In this document: in pieces, positions 5,965-26,543 of the stretch
Layout: each line of letters starts with the position of its first letter
Numbering within the stretch: position 1 is the first letter of the stretch
NCBI GenBank assembly: GCA_020072805.1
Contig: JAIQGC010000010.1
Location: 1-59,233, forward strand
Direction: 5' to 3'
DNA: 59,233 nucleotides
From: Terriglobia bacterium
Lineage (GTDB): Bacteria > Acidobacteriota > Terriglobia > Acidiferrales > UBA7541
Translations under genes and position numbers: made by a program
The notes under the pieces: generated by a model
Database searches by the model: none
What the model was told of the DNA's origin: nothing
What the model saw: the letters and a program-made list of their open reading frames with translations, nothing else

Positions 5965-7149
5965 CTAGGCCAGCGCCTGGCGCAGATCGGCGATCAGGTC
6001 CGCCACGTCCTCCAGACCCACGGAAACGCGCACGGTGCCGGGGCCTACGCCCGAACGGCTCAATTCTTCCTTGCTCATGTTGTAGTGCGAAGTGAACAGC
6101 GGCAGGACCACCAGCGACTCCACGCCGCCCAGGCTGGCCGCCAGAAGAAACAGGCGCACGCGGTCGCAGAAGCGCCGCGCAGCGGGCAGCCCGCCCTTCA
6201 AATCAATGGCCATCATCGAGCCGAATCCGCTCATCTGCGATTTGGCCAGCTTGTGGTCGGGATGCGCGGCCAGCCCCGGATAATGCACGCGGGCCACTTT
6301 CGGATGTTTTTCCAGGAATTTGGCCACGGCCATGGCGTTGGCGCACTGCCGCTCGACGCGCACCCCCAGCGTTTTCATCCCGCGAATCAGCATGTAAGCC
6401 GCTTCGGGGTCCATCGAGCCGCCCAGGCAGATGACCATGTTGCGGGCTTTATGCACGAGGGATGCCTTGCCGGCCACCGCTCCCGCAATCAGGTCGGTAT
6501 GGCCGTTGAGATACTTGGTCGCGCTGTGCACCACCAGATCAAATCCCATTTTTACGGGCTGCTGCAGCACCGGCGAGGCGAAGGTGTTGTCGATGATGGA
6601 AACGAGTTTGTGCTTGCGGGCAAAATCCGCGGCTTTGCGCAGGTCCACCAGGCGCAGCGTGGGATTGGTCGGCGATTCCACGTAGAGTGCGCGCACCTGC
6701 GGAGTCAGTTGCTTCTCGAGTCCGGCCAGGTCCGTTCCCACCTGGCGCACGCCGATGCCGAAGCGTGGAAGAATATCGCGCATCAGGCGGAACGTTCCGC
6801 CGTAGAGTTGCGCCGTGGAAATCACCTCGTCGCCGGCTTTGAGCACGCCCAGCAGCGCGCTGGAAATCGCGGCCATGCCCGAAGCCGTCACCACGCAGTC
6901 CTCGGCCCCTTCGAGCGCGGCGATCTTTTTCTCGGCCACGTCCAGCGTGGGATTGCCGTAGCGCGTGTAAATCCAGGCCTTGCTCTTCCCTTCCGCCCAG
7001 CGCTTCATCTCCTGCGTAGAGGCGAAGGTGAAGGACGAGGTGCGGCAGATGTCGATGCCCACCGGGGCGCTCTTGCGGAAGCGTTCGGGCTCTCCGGCAT
7101 GGATGGCCGTGGTCTGCGGGCCGCGGGGTGTCTTTTGGTTGTTCTTCAT
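5965..7149 (-). CDS. Cys/Met-metabolism PLP-dependent enzyme (cystathionine gamma-synthase/lyase family)
   Basis: This 394-residue protein belongs to the fold-type I PLP enzymes of transsulfuration. The PLP lysine lies in SATKYLNGHTDL, preceded by the cofactor-binding Asp in IIDNTFASPV, and the YxRxGNPT motif is present as YTRYGNPT. The C-terminal GVGPGTVRVSVGLED is the usual substrate-carboxylate Arg region. Candidate activities are cystathionine gamma-synthase, cystathionine gamma-lyase, methionine gamma-lyase or O-acyl-homoserine sulfhydrylase; the sequence alone does not choose. The ATG at 7149 fits the family N terminus; an upstream in-frame start adds 12 atypical residues. Its gene converges on the GGDEF-like gene with 3 bases between the stops. 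Confidence 0.92.
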   Translation of the reverse strand: MKNNQKTPRGPQTTAIHAGEPERFRKSAPVGIDICRTSSFTFASTQEMKRWAEGKSKAWIYTRYGNPTLDVAEKKIAALEGAEDCVVTASGMAAISSALLGVLKAGDEVISTAQLYGGTFRLMRDILPRFGIGVRQVGTDLAGLEKQLTPQVRALYVESPTNPTLRLVDLRKAADFARKHKLVSIIDNTFASPVLQQPVKMGFDLVVHSATKYLNGHTDLIAGAVAGKASLVHKARNMVICLGGSMDPEAAYMLIRGMKTLGVRVERQCANAMAVAKFLEKHPKVARVHYPGLAAHPDHKLAKSQMSGFGSMMAIDLKGGLPAARRFCDRVRLFLLAASLGGVESLVVLPLFTSHYNMSKEELSRSGVGPGTVRVSVGLEDVADLIADLRQALA

Positions 7150-7222
7150 AGGCAGAATCCTGCGCCCTTCCGGGCCGCCTGCCAACGGCCAAATTGGCGC
7201 CGCTCTCCGGGAGAAAAAAGGC

Positions 7223-12395: not shown

Positions 12396-13313
12396 CTAAA
12401 GGCCGGTGCGAAACGATCCATCCGGCTGCACAACGCCCCAAGCCATGCGCGGCGTATTGAAGGCGTAACCGGGATTCCCCTCGCAGTCGAGCAGGATCAG
12501 CCCGCCGGTGGATTCTGCGCGTTCGACCAGCAGGCGCACCGCTTCGCGCGCGGCGAGCATGGCCAGGTCGGCGGGGGATTCTTCGGCGTTGACCGGACGG
12601 CGCAGCAGGTCCACGGCGCTCTTGGCCATGACGATTTTCATGATGCCTTCGCCGTAGCCCGTGCAGGAGACACCGCCCGCTCCGCTATCGGCGTAGCAGC
12701 CGCAGCCGATCAGCGGGGAATCGCCGATGCGTCCGGGAAGTTTGCAGCAGGTGCCTCCGGTGGAGGTGGCGGCGACGAGGCGGCCCATGCCATCGAGCGC
12801 GACGGCGCCGACGGTGCCCTGGTCGTGGCCGCGATGATGCGCGGCGGCGTGTTTTCCTTCGCGGCAGAGTTTCCACGCGGCGCGCTCGGCTGCGGTAACC
12901 AACTCTTCCGGAGCGCACAGGGAAAACCCCTGCGCGACGGCGTAGCGCTCCGCACCTTCCCCGGCCAGCATCATGTGCGGGCCATTCTCCATCAACTTGC
13001 GCGCCAGGCGAATGGGATTGCGGATGCGTTTCAAACCGGCCACGGCTCCGGCGCGCAATGACGCGCCCTCCATGACGATGGCGTCGCATTCCACCTGGCC
13101 GTCGAGATTCAGATGCGAGCCGGTTCCGGCATCGAAGACCGGGTCATCTTCGAGAACGACGATGGCCGCTTCCACCGCGTCGAGCGCGGCGCCGCCGCGG
13201 GAAAGCATGGCCCAGCCCGCTTCGAGCGCGCGGCGGCAGCCCGCCTGGCAGGCCGCGGCCTGCTCGTCCGGAATATCCCAGGCGCCGCCATGGACGATGA
13301 GGGAAGGTTTCAT
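12396..13313 (-). CDS. iaaA: Isoaspartyl peptidase/L-asparaginase (Ntn hydrolase)
   Basis: A 305-residue plant-type asparaginase precursor. Such enzymes cleave themselves before a catalytic Thr to give alpha and beta subunits; here the site is in HDQGTVGAVALD near residue 165, and the substrate-binding GRIGDSPLIGCGCYAD and CTGYGEGIMK runs follow. The N terminus (LIVHGGAW) is canonical and no signal peptide is seen, so it acts in the cytoplasm, removing isoaspartyl dipeptides and possibly asparagine. It starts 29 bases after the greA stop on the same strand, so the two probably share a transcript. Confidence 0.93.
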   Translation of the reverse strand: MKPSLIVHGGAWDIPDEQAAACQAGCRRALEAGWAMLSRGGAALDAVEAAIVVLEDDPVFDAGTGSHLNLDGQVECDAIVMEGASLRAGAVAGLKRIRNPIRLARKLMENGPHMMLAGEGAERYAVAQGFSLCAPEELVTAAERAAWKLCREGKHAAAHHRGHDQGTVGAVALDGMGRLVAATSTGGTCCKLPGRIGDSPLIGCGCYADSGAGGVSCTGYGEGIMKIVMAKSAVDLLRRPVNAEESPADLAMLAAREAVRLLVERAESTGGLILLDCEGNPGYAFNTPRMAWGVVQPDGSFRTGL

Positions 13314-13342: not shown

Positions 13343-13822
13343 TCAGTCGTCTTCGTGAATCGTTATCAGGCGCACGACTTCAAACTCTTTTTTGCCCGCC
13401 GGCGTGGCCACCTGGACTTCATCGCCCACCTTGCGGTTGAGCAGGGCCTTGCCGATGGGCGAAGTGGTGGAGATCAGACCCTTTTCCGCGTCGGCCTCTT
13501 CGCTGCTCACCAGCTTGTACTCGATCTTCACTTCCTTGTGAATATCCAGCACCCAGATGCGCGAGCCGTAGCCGGAGCGGTCCGCGGGAATGTTGGCGAG
13601 ATTGAGCATGCCCAAGTCGCCCATGCGCTTCTTGAGGTTGACGATCTTGGCGTTGACGTAGCCCTGGCGTTCCTTGGCGTACTTGTATTCCGCGTTTTCG
13701 GACAAGTCGCCGTGCGCGCGCGCGACGGCGATCTCCTTGGGGAGCTCGACGTTCAGCTCGTGGGAGGGATGGTCGATTTCATCCTGCAACTTCTTTTTGA
13801 TCTTGCTCAGTGGGTCGGACAT
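13343..13822 (-). CDS. greA: Transcription elongation factor GreA
   Basis: 159 residues with the two-domain Gre layout: an N-terminal coiled coil with the acidic tip (RAHGDLSENAEYKYAKERQ, the D and E that position Mg2+ in the RNA polymerase secondary channel) and a C-terminal FKBP-like domain with STTSPIGKALLNRKVGDEV. It stimulates cleavage of backtracked RNA. The ATG at 13822 gives the usual length; the frame stays open upstream but without a ribosome site. Confidence 0.95.
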   Translation of the reverse strand: MSDPLSKIKKKLQDEIDHPSHELNVELPKEIAVARAHGDLSENAEYKYAKERQGYVNAKIVNLKKRMGDLGMLNLANIPADRSGYGSRIWVLDIHKEVKIEYKLVSSEEADAEKGLISTTSPIGKALLNRKVGDEVQVATPAGKKEFEVVRLITIHEDD

Positions 13823-21501: not shown

Positions 21502-21563
21502 ATGAAGTCCCCCGTGGTCCGCCTGTAATCCATCCCATGAAGACGCACGCCATGCCGCGATGA
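21502..21563 (+). other. Two tandem 8-codon mini-ORFs ahead of the lasso operon
   Basis: ATG 21502 is preceded by AGGAGGAG at 8 bases, a better ribosome site than any gene of the operon, yet encodes only MKSPVVRL. A second mini-frame (21537-21563, MKTHAMPR) overlaps the B1 start in an ATGA arrangement. They could couple or tune translation of the operon; chance is not excluded. Confidence 0.35.
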
Positions 21564-21862
21564 AAAGCGAGGGCTTGGGGACGATGATATCCGAACGCTC
21601 CACAGTCGTGGCGGCTAAAGACCAGGTCTCCTGCGATCTGGCCGGGGAGGCCGCCATTCTAAACGTCCCCAAGGGCACTTATTACGGCCTGGACGCCGTC
21701 GGCGCGCGCATTTGGAGCCTGCTGCAGACGCCGCGCGAGGTGGCCGAGATTCACCACACCATAGTGGCGGAATATGATGTCACCTCTGAGCGCTGCCTGC
21801 GTGAACTGCTCGAACTGCTGGAAAAACTGCAGGCCGAAGGCCTGATCGAAGTGCGTGGATGA
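21560..21862 (+). CDS. Lasso peptide B1 protein (PqqD-like RiPP recognition element)
   Basis: A 100-residue PqqD-family protein, the stand-alone RiPP recognition element that binds the precursor leader and presents it to B2 and C. Typical features are the N-terminal strand pair (VSCDLAGEAAILNVPKGTYY), the GLDAVGARIWSLL helix and the winged-helix end (RELLELLEKLQAEGLIEV). The ATG at 21560 was used, but the homologous part starts close to the internal ATG at 21584, so translation may begin there. Its TGA overlaps the B2 ATG (ATGA), which indicates coupled synthesis of the two. Confidence 0.9.
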   Translation: MKSEGLGTMISERSTVVAAKDQVSCDLAGEAAILNVPKGTYYGLDAVGARIWSLLQTPREVAEIHHTIVAEYDVTSERCLRELLELLEKLQAEGLIEVRG

Positions 21863-22350
21863 ACCGGACGCAAGCCTCGTGGCGGGAACGCTGGAGAAAA
21901 TTCCGCGCGCACACCCCCGGGCAGCGCGCTTTGATTCTGCGCGCGGCCCGGAACGAGTGCCTGGCCCTGGCTGGGCTGCGCCTGCTGGGATTCCGCCGCT
22001 GCAAAAGGCTGATTGAGCGATTCTCCCTTTCCCCGCAGGGGCACAACTCCTCCGTCGAGTGCGCCACGCCGGAGCGCGCCATTCAAATGATTCGCGCCGC
22101 GCAATCCGTGGAACGCAACCTGCCCCTCCGTCCCAACTGCCTGGAACGCTCCCTGGCCCTGTGGTGGATGCTGCGCCGCGAGGGCTTTCCGGCCGAACTG
22201 CACATCGGGGCGCGCCAGGGCCCGCAAGGCTTTGAAGCGCATGCCTGGGTCGAAGACGGCGGCCGGGTGCTCAACGACAGCCCCGACGTTCACCGGCACT
22301 ATGCGCGCTTCGACGCGCCCATTGCCGCCGCCGGAGCCGGTTCCCGGTGA
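21859..22350 (+). CDS. Lasso peptide B2 leader peptidase (transglutaminase-like Cys protease)
   Basis: 163 residues of the B2 family. The Cys-His-Asp triad is visible as NCLERSLALWWMLRREG (Cys), FEAHAWVE (His) and VLNDSPDV (Asp). B2 cuts the leader from the precursor, probably after the residue following the conserved Thr, in complex with B1. The N-terminal 60 residues are helical and basic, as in the family. Start overlaps the B1 stop by 4 bases, and its own TGA overlaps the GTG start of the cyclase gene. Confidence 0.92.
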   Translation: MNRTQASWRERWRKFRAHTPGQRALILRAARNECLALAGLRLLGFRRCKRLIERFSLSPQGHNSSVECATPERAIQMIRAAQSVERNLPLRPNCLERSLALWWMLRREGFPAELHIGARQGPQGFEAHAWVEDGGRVLNDSPDVHRHYARFDAPIAAAGAGSR

Positions 22351-24170
22351 GCGGATTCGCCGGGATCGTGAATTTTGATGGCGCTCCGGTGGACCGCGCG
22401 CTGCTGGAACAGTTGACGCACCACCAGGCATTCCGCGGGCCCGATGCGGAGGGCCTCTGGTGCGCGGGCGGCGTGGGCTTCGGCCACGCCCTGCTGCGCA
22501 CCACGCGGGAAGCTACGCGGGAACACCAGCCGCTGGGGTTGAACGACCAACTGTGGATCGTCGCCGACGCCCGGCTCGACGCGCGCGCCGAACTGCTCGC
22601 CAAACTGCAAGCCCGCGGCGCCGCGCTTTCCCTCTCCTCGCCCGATGTCGAACTCATCCTCCACGCCTATCACCAATGGGGCGAAGCCTGCGTCGAACAT
22701 ATTTCAGGTGATTTTTCCTTCGCCATCTGGGACGCGCTGAACCACAAGCTCTTTTGCGCGCGCGATCATTTCGGCATCCGCCAGTTATTCTACGCCCAAC
22801 TCGGCAACACCCTGATTTTCAGCAACACCCTCAGCGCTCTGCGGCTGATTCCTGGCCTCTCCGGCCGCCTGAACGACCTGGCCATCGCCGATTTCCTGCT
22901 CTTCGACATGATCCAGGACCCCGCCGCGACCTCCTTCGAGGGGATTCACCGCCTGCCGCCCGCGAATACGCTGGTTGCGCAACGGGACAAGCTCTCCTTG
23001 CAGCGCTATTGGGAATTGAGCGTCACCGCCCCCGTTCGCTACGCCCGAGAGGAAGAGTACGTCGAGCGTTTCAAGGAGTTGCTCGATGCCGCCGTGAGCG
23101 ATCGCCTGCGCACCGATAACGCCGGTATCCTGTTGAGCGGCGGGTTGGATTCGCCCACGGTAGCCGCCAGCGCACGACGAGTTCTGCACCGCCAGGGAAT
23201 CTCAGGAGGCCTTGCCGCCAGCACGCATGTCTTCGACACGCTCATTCCTCATGAGGAGCGGTATTACACAGGTCTGGTTGCCAAAGCCCTGCAAATTCCT
23301 GTCGAATTTTCGGTCTTGGATCACTGCCGCATCTTCGAGCGCGCCGATCTGCCGGAAGCCCAGGCCAGCGAGCCCGCCCATTCCGCCTGGCCAGACACCT
23401 TTCCGGATCAGTTGAGATCGCTGCCCGAAGGCTGCCGCGTGGTTCTGACGGGGTACGGAGGCGACCCGGCCCTGTGCGGACGCATCTCCGTGCACTTCCG
23501 CGAATTGCTCGCCGCTGGAGAGTACCGCAGGGCCATCTCCGACGCGTTCCGTTATCTCACCTGCGAGGGAAGATTCTCCCGCCTCTATCTCCGCACGCGC
23601 TGGCGCATTGTGTTCGGCTCCAAAAACCAGGCGTCGTTCTACCCTCCCTGGCTGAATGAGGATCTGCAAAAGCGCCTGGGACTGCGCGAGCGTTGGGAAC
23701 AGTTGAATCAACCTGTCCCGGCTGGCCCGGCTGTTCGCCCGGAAGCCCAGCAAGCGATGGCCAACCCTTTCTGGGCCAGCGCCCTCCAAGTCTATGACGC
23801 CAGTTGTTCACGTGCTCCGGTGGAGGTGCGCCACCCCTTGTTCGACCTGCGCCTGGTGAATTTTCTTTTGGGTTTGCCGCGAATGCCGTGGTGTTCGGAC
23901 AAGGAACTGTTCCGGGAGGCCGCCCGCGGAACGCTTTCTGATGCCGTGCGTTTGCGGCGCAAATCACCGCTCAGCGCCGACCCGCTGGTGGCCCTGCTGG
24001 AAGGGCCGGAATCAGCCTGGGTAGACCAGTTTGTCGCTGCCCCGGAACTGGATCCTTATGTGGCGCGCCCCCATATTCCCAAGGTAATTAACGAAAGAAA
24101 TACGTGGAAGGCGTGGATTCATCTCCGGCCGTTGAGCTTGAACTTTTGGTTGCGCGGCCTAGGCAAATAG
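22347..24170 (+). CDS. Lasso peptide cyclase C (asparagine synthetase-like)
   Basis: 607 residues, class B asparagine-synthetase architecture. The N-terminal glutaminase-like domain starts MSGFAGIV and has no Cys2, so it cannot use glutamine, as is usual for lasso cyclases. The ATP pyrophosphatase loop is LLSGGLDSPTVAAS near residue 263. The enzyme adenylates the Asp or Glu side chain of the core and joins it to the core N terminus, forming the macrolactam in threaded shape. The start is GTG 22347 within a GTGA overlap with B2. The precursor gene begins 15 bases after its stop. Confidence 0.93.
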   Translation: MSGFAGIVNFDGAPVDRALLEQLTHHQAFRGPDAEGLWCAGGVGFGHALLRTTREATREHQPLGLNDQLWIVADARLDARAELLAKLQARGAALSLSSPDVELILHAYHQWGEACVEHISGDFSFAIWDALNHKLFCARDHFGIRQLFYAQLGNTLIFSNTLSALRLIPGLSGRLNDLAIADFLLFDMIQDPAATSFEGIHRLPPANTLVAQRDKLSLQRYWELSVTAPVRYAREEEYVERFKELLDAAVSDRLRTDNAGILLSGGLDSPTVAASARRVLHRQGISGGLAASTHVFDTLIPHEERYYTGLVAKALQIPVEFSVLDHCRIFERADLPEAQASEPAHSAWPDTFPDQLRSLPEGCRVVLTGYGGDPALCGRISVHFRELLAAGEYRRAISDAFRYLTCEGRFSRLYLRTRWRIVFGSKNQASFYPPWLNEDLQKRLGLRERWEQLNQPVPAGPAVRPEAQQAMANPFWASALQVYDASCSRAPVEVRHPLFDLRLVNFLLGLPRMPWCSDKELFREAARGTLSDAVRLRRKSPLSADPLVALLEGPESAWVDQFVAAPELDPYVARPHIPKVINERNTWKAWIHLRPLSLNFWLRGLGK

Positions 24171-24185
24171 GATAAAAAGACTGCA

Positions 24186-24350
24186 ATGACTTCAAAGAAT
24201 GCAAGACTGAAAGAGTCCAGCCAAGGCGCCGCCAAGAAACCCTATGAGACCCCGCGGGTCCGGGTTTATGGGGATGTTTCCCGCCTTACCAGAACCACCC
24301 ATGGCGGGGCGGTTCAAGACGCGCAAAGTAAGGCAGCCAACAAGACCTGA
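24186..24350 (+). CDS. Lasso peptide precursor A
   Basis: A 54-residue gene. The leader contains the RRE-binding pattern YxxPxVxxxGxxxxLT (Tyr20, Pro23, Val25, Gly29, Leu34, Thr35). If Thr35 is the conserved penultimate leader residue (-2), Tyr20, Pro23 and Val25 fall at -17, -14 and -12, the positions known for lasso leaders. Cleavage after Arg36 gives the core TTHGGAVQDAQSKAANKT (18 residues), where Asp9 is the only acidic residue and would close a 9-residue ring with Thr1; the tail is AQSKAANKT. The ribosome site is weak (AGGATAA). The TGA overlaps the kinase ATG. Thr at position 1 is unusual; His39 as residue 1 with Asp at 7 is the alternative. Confidence 0.88.
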   Translation: MTSKNARLKESSQGAAKKPYETPRVRVYGDVSRLTRTTHGGAVQDAQSKAANKT

Positions 24351-25387
24351 TGGAGCAATCCCAAAGCCGTTTGAAAGTTCTTCAATCTGTTTACGGTTTG
24401 CTGCTGGAAACGCCCCTGCCAGTTCCCGGTTTGCAACTGCAGGCCGAGCGCAGAGACGAAGATGTGCGAGTCCACGTAAGGGGCGTTCTTGCCGAGGGCG
24501 AATTCCCCTTCCCCATCACGGCGCAAAATTTCTTTTATGCCAGCCCGACGCTAGATGACAAGGGCCTGCCCCTGGTGCGCGCTGGGTGGGATACAAAAGA
24601 GAACTATTTTGGTTTTTGGTATTCCGACGGGGCAAAGTTTGCCGTTTCGCGCGAAGGGTGCGAAATCTGGGCCGATTGGCCGGACGGCTACACGCTGGAA
24701 GACGCTTGCACGTACCTCGTCGGGCCGGTTCTCGCCTTTGCCCTTCGCCTTCGCGGAGCCACCTGCCTGCACGCCAGCGCCATCGAAGTGGACGGCCTGG
24801 CCATCGCTCTGGTGGGGGCGCCCGGCGCGGGAAAATCCACCACCGCCGCGGCCTTTGCCCTTGCCGGCTTCCCCGTGCTTTCCGATGACATCGTGGTTTT
24901 GTCCGAAACGAATGGCCGGCTCTTCGTCCAGCCAGGCTACCCCCGCGTAAACGTGTGGCCGGATTCGGCGCGCGCCCTGACGGGTTCCGCAGCGGCCTTG
25001 CCGCTCATCACCCCCACCTGGGGAAAACATTTTTTGCCGCTCGGCCAGAACGGGCTGCGCTTCGCCGGGCGGCCCCTGCCCCTGGGCGCTGTCTATCTCC
25101 TGGCCGAGCGCCAGCCGGAACTGGCCGCTCCGGTCGTGGAAGAGATCTCCGGCAGCGAGGCCATGGTCACGCTGGCCGCCAACACCTATCAGAATTACCT
25201 CCTGGACGCGGAGATGCGCCGGAAGGATTTTGAACTCTTCGAGCGTCTGGCCAAGGCCCTTCCCGTGCGCCGCATTCGCCGCCCCGACGACATTTCCGCC
25301 CTCGCCAGTTCCTGCGAGGCCATCGCCGCGGACGCCAGGCGGATGCTGGCCCGTGGGATCGCCAATGAAGTCCCAGCGGGGGACTGA
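24350..25387 (+). CDS. HPr kinase-like protein, candidate lasso peptide kinase
   Basis: 345 residues with the C-terminal HPr-kinase fold: HASAIEVDG strand, Walker A GAPGAGKST near residue 155, and the LSDDIVVL loop near 177 with the two Asp that act as base and metal ligand in HprK. Homologues in lasso clusters (PadeK, ThcoK) phosphorylate the C-terminal Ser of the precursor. Here the precursor ends in Thr, so Thr54 is the obvious candidate acceptor. The gene starts inside the precursor stop codon (TGATG), meaning that the two are translationally coupled. The first 120 residues are less conserved. Confidence 0.85.
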   Translation: MEQSQSRLKVLQSVYGLLLETPLPVPGLQLQAERRDEDVRVHVRGVLAEGEFPFPITAQNFFYASPTLDDKGLPLVRAGWDTKENYFGFWYSDGAKFAVSREGCEIWADWPDGYTLEDACTYLVGPVLAFALRLRGATCLHASAIEVDGLAIALVGAPGAGKSTTAAAFALAGFPVLSDDIVVLSETNGRLFVQPGYPRVNVWPDSARALTGSAAALPLITPTWGKHFLPLGQNGLRFAGRPLPLGAVYLLAERQPELAAPVVEEISGSEAMVTLAANTYQNYLLDAEMRRKDFELFERLAKALPVRRIRRPDDISALASSCEAIAADARRMLARGIANEVPAGD

Positions 25388-25388
25388 A

Positions 25389-26543
25389 ATGTACACCTAT
25401 AGCCTCTCCGGTTACGGCGTCATGGCTGCGGATCGCATCCGCAACGAGGCCTACGCCCAGGCCCTCCGCTCCGCCATCCAACCCGGCTGCGTGGTCCTGG
25501 ATATCGGCACCGGCACGGGAGCCATGGCCGTGCTGGCCTGCCAACTGGGCGCCGGGCGCGTCTTTGCCATTGAACCCAGCCCCGTCATCCAGGTCGCACG
25601 CCAGGTCGCCGCCGCGAATCACTGCGCCGAGAGAATCGAGTTCATCGAGGATCTCTCCACGCGGGCCACCCTTCCGGTTCAGGCCCACGTAATCGTCTCC
25701 GATTTGCGTGGAATACTTCCCTTGTTCCAACAACATATTCCTTCCATCGTGGATGCGCGCCGGCGTCATCTCGCCCCCGGCGGCACCCTCATTCCGCGCA
25801 AGGATTTTCTCTGGGCGGCCATTGTGGAAGCTCCCAAGACCTATTCCGAAATCGTGGATCCCTGGGAGAAGAACACCTTCGGCCAGGATCTCTCCGCTGC
25901 CCGCCAAATCGCCGTGAACAAGTACTGCAAGGCGCGCATGCCGCCGGAACAGCTCCTGGCCAAACCCAGTCTATGGAAGACGCTGGACTACAGACAGATT
26001 GAGAACCCCGACGCCGAAGGCGGGCTGGAATGGACCATTGAACGCGACGGAACCGGCCACGGCATCCTGATGTGGTTCGATGCCGAACTAACCGAGGGCG
26101 TGGGCTATTCCAACGCTCCCGGCACCCCCAAGGTTATTTACGGCTCCTTGTTTTTCCCTTGGCCGCAGCCGGTTGCGCTGGCCGCCGGCCAAAACGTAGC
26201 CATCGAACTGCACGCCAAACTGCTCGAACAGGACTACACCTGGCGCTGGAAAACGCGCATTGCCCCGGCCGGAAAATCCGCCGAGACGCGCTTCTCCTTT
26301 GACCAGTCCGACCTACAGGGCATGCTGCTCTCACCTGTCTCTCTCCGCAAGACCGCTGCCGACTACGTCCCCTCTCTTTCCGAAGACGGCGCGCTGCATG
26401 CCCGAACACTCGCCTTAATGGACGGCCGGCGCTCCCTCGAAGAAATTGCCCGCCAGCTCTGTGCCGAATTCCCCGGGCGCTTTCCCGGCTGGCGCCAAGC
26501 CCTCGGCTACGCCGGCGCCCTCTCCCAGAAACTCAGCCGCTAA
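25389..26543 (+). CDS. PRMT-like SAM methyltransferase with C-terminal PqqD-like tail
   Basis: 384 residues from the ATG one base after the kinase stop. The N terminus (MYTYSLSGYGVMAADRIRNEAYAQAL split by position 1-26) and motif I (VLDIGTGTGAMAVLA, near 37) place it among PRMT-like class I methyltransferases. Where PRMTs have the double-Glu loop it reads VSDLRGILP, so Arg methylation is doubtful. A beta-barrel domain follows. The last 50 residues (LMDGRRSLEEIARQLCAEF...) look like the winged-helix half of PqqD/RRE proteins and may hold the leader. The predicted core has no Arg; His3, the Lys residues, Asn or the C-terminal carboxylate are possible targets. Confidence 0.78.
   Translation: MYTYSLSGYGVMAADRIRNEAYAQALRSAIQPGCVVLDIGTGTGAMAVLACQLGAGRVFAIEPSPVIQVARQVAAANHCAERIEFIEDLSTRATLPVQAHVIVSDLRGILPLFQQHIPSIVDARRRHLAPGGTLIPRKDFLWAAIVEAPKTYSEIVDPWEKNTFGQDLSAARQIAVNKYCKARMPPEQLLAKPSLWKTLDYRQIENPDAEGGLEWTIERDGTGHGILMWFDAELTEGVGYSNAPGTPKVIYGSLFFPWPQPVALAAGQNVAIELHAKLLEQDYTWRWKTRIAPAGKSAETRFSFDQSDLQGMLLSPVSLRKTAADYVPSLSEDGALHARTLALMDGRRSLEEIARQLCAEFPGRFPGWRQALGYAGALSQKLSR

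Follow-up and report, generated by a model that had tools for sequence, protein, structure and literature searches.

The window (the whole stretch of 59,233 nucleotides analysed, from contig JAIQGC010000010.1 of a Terriglobia bacterium) contains six genes that lie tightly packed on the forward strand in the order B1-B2-C-A-K-M. B1 (21560..21862) encodes a PqqD-like leader-binding protein (RRE) of 100 aa, which matches Pfam PqqD at 65.8 bits and NCBIfam lasso_PqqD_Bac at 75.1 bits, slightly short of the cut-off of 80. B2 (21859..22350) encodes a transglutaminase-like leader peptidase of 163 aa, which matches NCBIfam lasso_biosyn_B2 at 86.9 bits (cut-off 33) and is the sole B2 match of the genome at E ≤ 0.001. 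C (22347..24170, with a GTG start) encodes an asparagine-synthetase-like macrolactam cyclase of 607 aa; its best NCBIfam model is a lasso cyclase, at 355.8 bits (under the cut-off of 525), and all 11 homologues aligned, without exception, have its SGGLDS motif and the Ser at position 2. Glutamine-using relatives have Cys at that position.

Downstream of A, K (24350..25387) encodes an HPr-kinase-related kinase of 345 aa, in which a Walker A motif, GAPGAGKS, can be read by eye at residues 156-163. K matches NCBIfam HprK_rel_A at 47.2 bits (cut-off 200) and Pfam Hpr_kinase_C at 24.1 bits (cut-off 33.3), and its best match to a solved HPr kinase has an E of only 0.018; because the scores lie under the curated cut-offs, K is called here a distant HPrK relative. 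M (25389..26543) encodes a SAM methyltransferase of 384 aa with the fold of the protein arginine methyltransferases (PRMTs) and a C-terminal helical tail that weakly matches PqqD (E 0.14). The nearest flanking genes with a Pfam match are ordinary ones, for an amidohydrolase, a metallo-beta-lactamase plus rhodanese, an M20 peptidase, and a TPR protein.

The preliminary description had reported an unannotated precursor gene at this point, and this was borne out. The 54-aa open reading frame at 24186-24350 translates as claimed, with the motif Y20-x2-P23-x-V25-x3-G29-x4-L34-T35; it starts 15 nt downstream of the end of C, its stop shares one base with the start of K (TGATG), and B1, B2, and C lie beside it, as in a lasso biosynthetic cluster. 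It is a real gene within a lasso operon. The NCBIfam model lasso_leader_L3 matches A at 22.1 bits, over its cut-off of 19, and lasso_cyano at 20.1 bits, under its cut-off of 33, while a Pfam search of A found no family. A is the only convincing copy genome-wide, the second match (E 0.78) lying inside a 353-aa frame. The leader (residues 1-36, 24294 being the first core base and 24186..24293 its own span) has the YxxPxL/V pattern, the Gly, and the Thr at -2 of lasso leaders; the core, TTHGGAVQDAQSKAANKT (24294..24347), runs from T37 to the terminal K53-T54 and has a single acidic residue, D45 (codon 24318-24320), which is at +9 and thus within the usual range of 7 to 9. Classical lasso peptides begin with Gly, Ala, Ser, or Cys, and the core of A begins with Thr. 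As far as its sequence goes, A satisfies all the lasso-family tests made, bar that of the classical first residue.

The assignment of +1 depends on the leader register, for which relatives were gathered. A search with C at a threshold of E ≤ 1e-40 hit 67 of the 89 genomes of the same bacterial family, its own genome included, the tail of the match list consisting of more distant Asn-synthetase-like proteins. Sixty fetched regions plus the window (61 loci) were read with a leader pattern, which resulted in 59 accepted precursor rows from 55 loci, containing 57 distinct cores. Two sets of 57 members are used below, differing by one member each way: the distinct cores from all 59 rows (for counts of acids, first residues, shuffles, and tails) and the distinct leader-plus-core pairs near the C match (for the conservation of His). 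Six loci with a C match and no candidate precursor downstream (L054, L067, L072, L078, L089, and L090) are outside all counts. So are several precursors read later: L166 and L168 (Ala, acid at +9), L167 (Thr, acid at +9), L170 (Ala, acid at +8), a second L034 core (Ala, acid at +10), and L169, which comes from a different family within the order and has Ile at -2, Met as its would-be first residue, and Glu at +9. A profile built from 15 precursors finds matches in 58 of the 95 genomes of the order and, beyond the family, in only one of six genomes.

Since the gathering pattern itself demanded the Thr, the count was repeated without demanding it: Thr lies six residues after the leader Gly (Gly+6) in 57 of the 68 candidate ORFs downstream of C, the other 11 comprising ten that resemble out-of-frame noise and one degenerate second precursor. 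This near-invariance supports the register originally proposed, in which T35 is -2, T37 is +1, and D45 is +9, and with it the placing of Y20, P23, and V25 at -17, -14, and -12 and the reading of TTHGGAVQD as the segment of a nine-residue ring with its single acid at position 9. At positions 6556-6750 of locus L050, the -2 Thr is replaced by Arg in a second, degenerate-looking precursor.

A B2 match is absent at 17 of the 55 precursor loci, some of them at contig ends. Among the 20 of 31 B2 matches examined, ten genomes (loci L176, L177, L182-L188, and L190) have an A-C-K(-M) region without a B2 match and a B1-B2 pair on another contig; the short flanks of these pairs contain no C match. Their position on a separate contig suggests that the leader peptidase probably works in trans in these ten genomes. 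A different route of cleavage was considered for the loci without an adjacent B2; it is not needed, as B2 is encoded in 18 of the 18 genomes searched.

The preliminary description regarded Thr1 as unusual. This stands against the lasso peptides characterised so far but not within this lineage, where Thr is the commonest +1 residue (18 of the 57 distinct cores) and hence a common start; it is followed by Ser (11), Ala (9), Lys (7), Arg (4), Val (3), Gln (2), Asn (2), and Leu (1), with Gly in none, so a classical first residue is absent from 37 of the 57. To view Thr1 as the oddity of a single peptide is too narrow. The preliminary description had also suggested checking whether Thr at +1 and Asp at +9 are conserved in related precursors; as a pair they are not, occurring together in just 10 of the 57.

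A literature search limited to open-licence papers found no report of a Thr1 lasso peptide, the passage concerned in PMC6856326 being about Thr18. Among the closest known parallels is metanodin, from a soil metagenome, which resembles the system in the window in its T(-2) leader rule, its unannotated precursor, its Asp acceptor (with nine ring-opened fragments reported), and a first residue, Asn1, outside Gly/Ala/Ser/Cys; a metanodin relative has Gln in that place (excerpts of PMC12670498). Metanodin thus indicates that cyclisation does not depend on a classical first residue, which is a usual trait rather than a strict definition. It differs in coming from the gammaproteobacterial Steroidobacterales and in having Asn rather than Thr at +1, and the excerpts of PMC12670498 do not mention tailoring by a kinase or a methyltransferase. 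Outside the family, the clusters that bear M are, among the matches listed, more conventional: Gly begins the core, with Asp8 in the same register, in Nitrospira (L100) and Tropicimonas (L098), and the first residue is Ala in the Erythrobacter cluster (L096) and Ser in that of an Acidobacteriota assembly (L093), although L101 would begin with Thr and a planctomycete (L097) with Asp.

The position of the acid is constrained. One acidic residue is present in 56 of the 57 cores and two in the other; 36 cores have their first acid at +9, 12 at +8, 8 at +10, and 1 at +11. It therefore falls at +8 to +10 in 56 of the 57, whereas 2000 shuffles within the cores put it there in an average of 8.4 cores and never in more than 19. 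The ring acid is nevertheless less fixed at +9 than had been hoped. A tree built from 51 cyclases places the window within a supported clade of 10 rows, in which the acid is at +10 in six (four distinct cores), at +9 in two, at +8 in one, and at +11 in one. At least five changes on the cyclase tree are needed for the +10 class, and the cyclases of L036 (acid at +9) and L040 (acid at +10) are 92.4% identical. The core shared by L038 and L040, ATTNIMAKHDGQANKTN, with its acid at +10, would give a macrolactam with a computed mass of 1795.86 Da. Further precursors with the acid at +10 occur in genome G083, where one contig (L034) carries two kinase-methyltransferase modules and three precursors (7021-7182, 12794-12934, and 13374-13511), the acid being at +10 in two of them and at +11 in the third.

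A bolder prediction from these figures is that natural rings of 10 and 11 residues occur in the relatives. Fusilassin/fuscanodin, which begins with Trp, has the same nine-residue ring as predicted for the window. In that actinobacterial peptide, rings of 7-10 residues are tolerated when engineered, a 10-residue ring being reached by engineering only, and its four genes include neither a K nor an M (excerpts of PMC13352647). The search of open-licence papers gave, among the matches listed, no lasso paper on 10-membered rings. The sequence counts suggest that this group follows looser rules for first residue and ring size than the lasso peptides hitherto characterised. A more specific proposal, which we advance tentatively as somewhat short of probable, is that the cyclases of this lineage lack both the rule of a small first residue and the limit of 7-9, so that near-identical (92%) enzymes would make rings of different sizes, from 8 to 11 residues, starting with Thr, Ala, Ser, Lys, Arg, Gln, or Asn, on peptides with a [K/R]T terminus that the HPrK-like kinase would phosphorylate and the PRMT-fold methyltransferase would methylate.

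The most serious alternative is a movable cleavage site that keeps every ring at nine residues: the core would begin a residue further on in relatives with the acid at +10 and a residue sooner in those with +8, ring sizes would be ordinary, and the window would still be Thr1-Asp9. This would fit a 2026 review, in which the structurally characterised rings have 7, 8, or 9 residues (excerpts of PMC13352647). It would also make a core such as ATTNIMAKHD start with Thr, as in the window, and the Val (3) and Leu (1) at +1 in the +8 class mean that a hydrophobic first residue is possible in the family. Against this, Thr occupies Gly+6 ahead of the cores of every acid class, and residues +1 to +3 are similar whether the acid is at +9 or at +10/+11. 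In the nine long-ring cores (those with the first acid past +9), the T(-2) register puts Ala, Ser, or Thr at +1 in nine out of nine, whereas a shifted cut would place Ile, Val, Lys, or Thr there, and neither Ile nor Val is found at +1 among the 36 cores with the acid at +9. The T(-2) register is strongly favoured in five of the nine and is neutral or slightly disfavoured in four, with a summed log-likelihood difference of 40.3 when related cores are counted apart; the five are not five independent cases because they include two pairs of similar sequences. The constant nine-residue ring is thus weakened on the evidence of the aligned sequences, and we consider it unlikely.

Our preferred reading, in which we are fairly confident as a whole, is that A is a lasso-type precursor with a Thr37-Asp45 ring, made under loose rules for +1 and ring size and probably tailored at its C-terminus. 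B1 would bind the leader at YxxPxV, B2 would cut after R36, one residue past T35, to free Thr37, and C would use ATP to activate the side chain of Asp45 and join it to the alpha-amine of Thr37. The product would be a nine-residue macrolactam with the tail AQSKAANKT and a computed mass of 1765.87 Da, compared with 1783.88 Da for the linear core (-18 Da). A cyclase of this lineage, with no strict selection for a small first residue, would take whichever residue the leader register sets at +1, and in the relatives ring sizes from 8 to 11 residues appear to be accepted. Of this scheme, the sequences analysed show the gene order, the register, the spacing of the acid, the conserved motifs, and the fold of M, and from these the cleavage site, ring closure, threading, phosphorylation, and methylation are inferred.

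The proposed tailoring involves K and perhaps M. A [K/R]T motif with its Thr within the last four residues is present in 43 of the 57 cores, compared with a shuffle mean of 4.5; it is found in 13 of the 13 cores near M and in 30 of the 44 others. In the window this Thr is the last residue, and in relatives it often precedes the end by one to three residues. At 54 of the 55 loci with an accepted precursor, a match to the kinase is no more than 1.5 kb away from it. The window resembles the clusters of paeninodin and other kinase lasso peptides (PadeK, ThcoK, SyanK, and PsmK), which have an HPrK-related kinase gene and precursors with a hydroxyl residue at the C-terminus; their site is the C-terminal Ser and the window has instead a Thr after Lys/Arg (excerpts of PMC9266682 and PMC10368454). 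BsfA/BsfK of Bradymonas likewise has a kinase, B1, B2, and a YxxPxL leader but differs in its Gly1, its Ile at -2, and its phosphorylation at ring Ser3; Acidobacteriaceae precursors are also named there (excerpts of PMC10368454). By analogy with these kinases, which modify a C-terminal Ser or ring Ser3, the Thr conserved in the C-terminal [K/R]T motif (Thr54 in the window) is the likely target of K, which would probably phosphorylate it.

Within the family, 13 of the 55 precursor loci include M, which is also a neighbour of lasso-type genes in several other phyla. A profile from 13 M proteins matches PRMTs at E 8.6e-42, and the predicted model of M (pLDDT 85.4) has PRMT8, PRMT6, and PRMT1 as its top Foldseek matches, at about 1e-26; by this modelling, M has the PRMT fold. 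A double-Glu active-site loop is characteristic of protein arginine methyltransferases. In M, this loop is altered: the first Glu is Asp in 13 of the 13 aligned M proteins, and the second is Gln in the window. Methylation of an Arg of the core by M was considered and is disfavoured by this Asp and by the lack of Arg in 7 of the 13 cores beside M, that of the window included, although six of the 13 M proteins retain the second Glu. The substrate of M may instead be the C-terminal end of the core, perhaps the same [K/R]T motif on which K would act. Other methyltransferases are known in lasso clusters, namely those of lihuanodin/cellulonodin-2 (excerpts of PMC13001092) and of the lassomycin type (excerpts of PMC9266682), but these are PIMT or O-methyltransferases acting on Asp6 or on the C-terminal carboxylate, whereas M has the PRMT fold. 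At least 43 relatives of M exist in named genomes, and eight of the 32 examined have B2, C, or K matches nearby; among the matches listed, the three best belong to Acidobacteriota assemblies and the strongest lasso neighbourhoods outside Acidobacteriota are in Erythrobacter, a planctomycete, Tropicimonas, and Nitrospira. The search of open-licence papers found none that brings a PRMT and a lasso peptide together, and joint tailoring of a conserved [K/R]T end by K and M, if it takes place, was not found described in that literature.

Whether the ring is threaded is a separate matter. The product might be a branched-cyclic, unthreaded macrolactam rather than a true lasso, as the tail of the window has no aromatic plug and Phe, Tyr, and Trp are missing from 38 of the 57 tails (19 contain one of them, and 36 do so if His is included). 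The machinery, however, is of the lasso type, and benenodin-1 is held by Glu14/Gln15 and Lys17 (excerpts of PMC13352647), which means that polar plugs exist; Lys13 and Lys17 would be available in the window core. An unthreaded product is, in our view, quite improbable. Still less credible is a decayed or unused precursor in a cluster that makes nothing: a scan of 19 chosen flanking ORFs (of the 96 listed, of at least 180 aa) recognised neither a dedicated exporter nor an isopeptidase, which in the case of the exporter would suit such decay, but the operon is intact, with overlapping genes and an intact SGGLDS motif, and related precursors are widespread in the order, as described above. A start at His39, with T37 as -2 and a seven-residue ring to Asp45, can practically be discarded: T37 is also a Thr two residues ahead of a possible start and seven-residue rings exist in the xanthomonins, but Thr is at Gly+6 in 57 of the 68 candidates as against 18 of the 68 at Gly+8, and the conserved His with a ring at Asp7, which the preliminary description had named as evidence against its own reading, was looked for across the 57 leader-plus-core pairs and was not found.

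Many precursors of this family would escape mining rules that ask for a classical first residue (Gly, Ala, Ser, or Cys) together with an acid at 7-9, given the 37 of 57 cores with a non-classical first residue and the 9 of 57 with the acid past +9. If the rings are real, these cyclases would be natural tools for macrolactams of varied sizes and first residues, which engineers want. One sub-clade (L042, L045, L049, and L058) combines an acid at +8 and Thr at +1 with a pair of core cysteines that may be linked as a disulfide.
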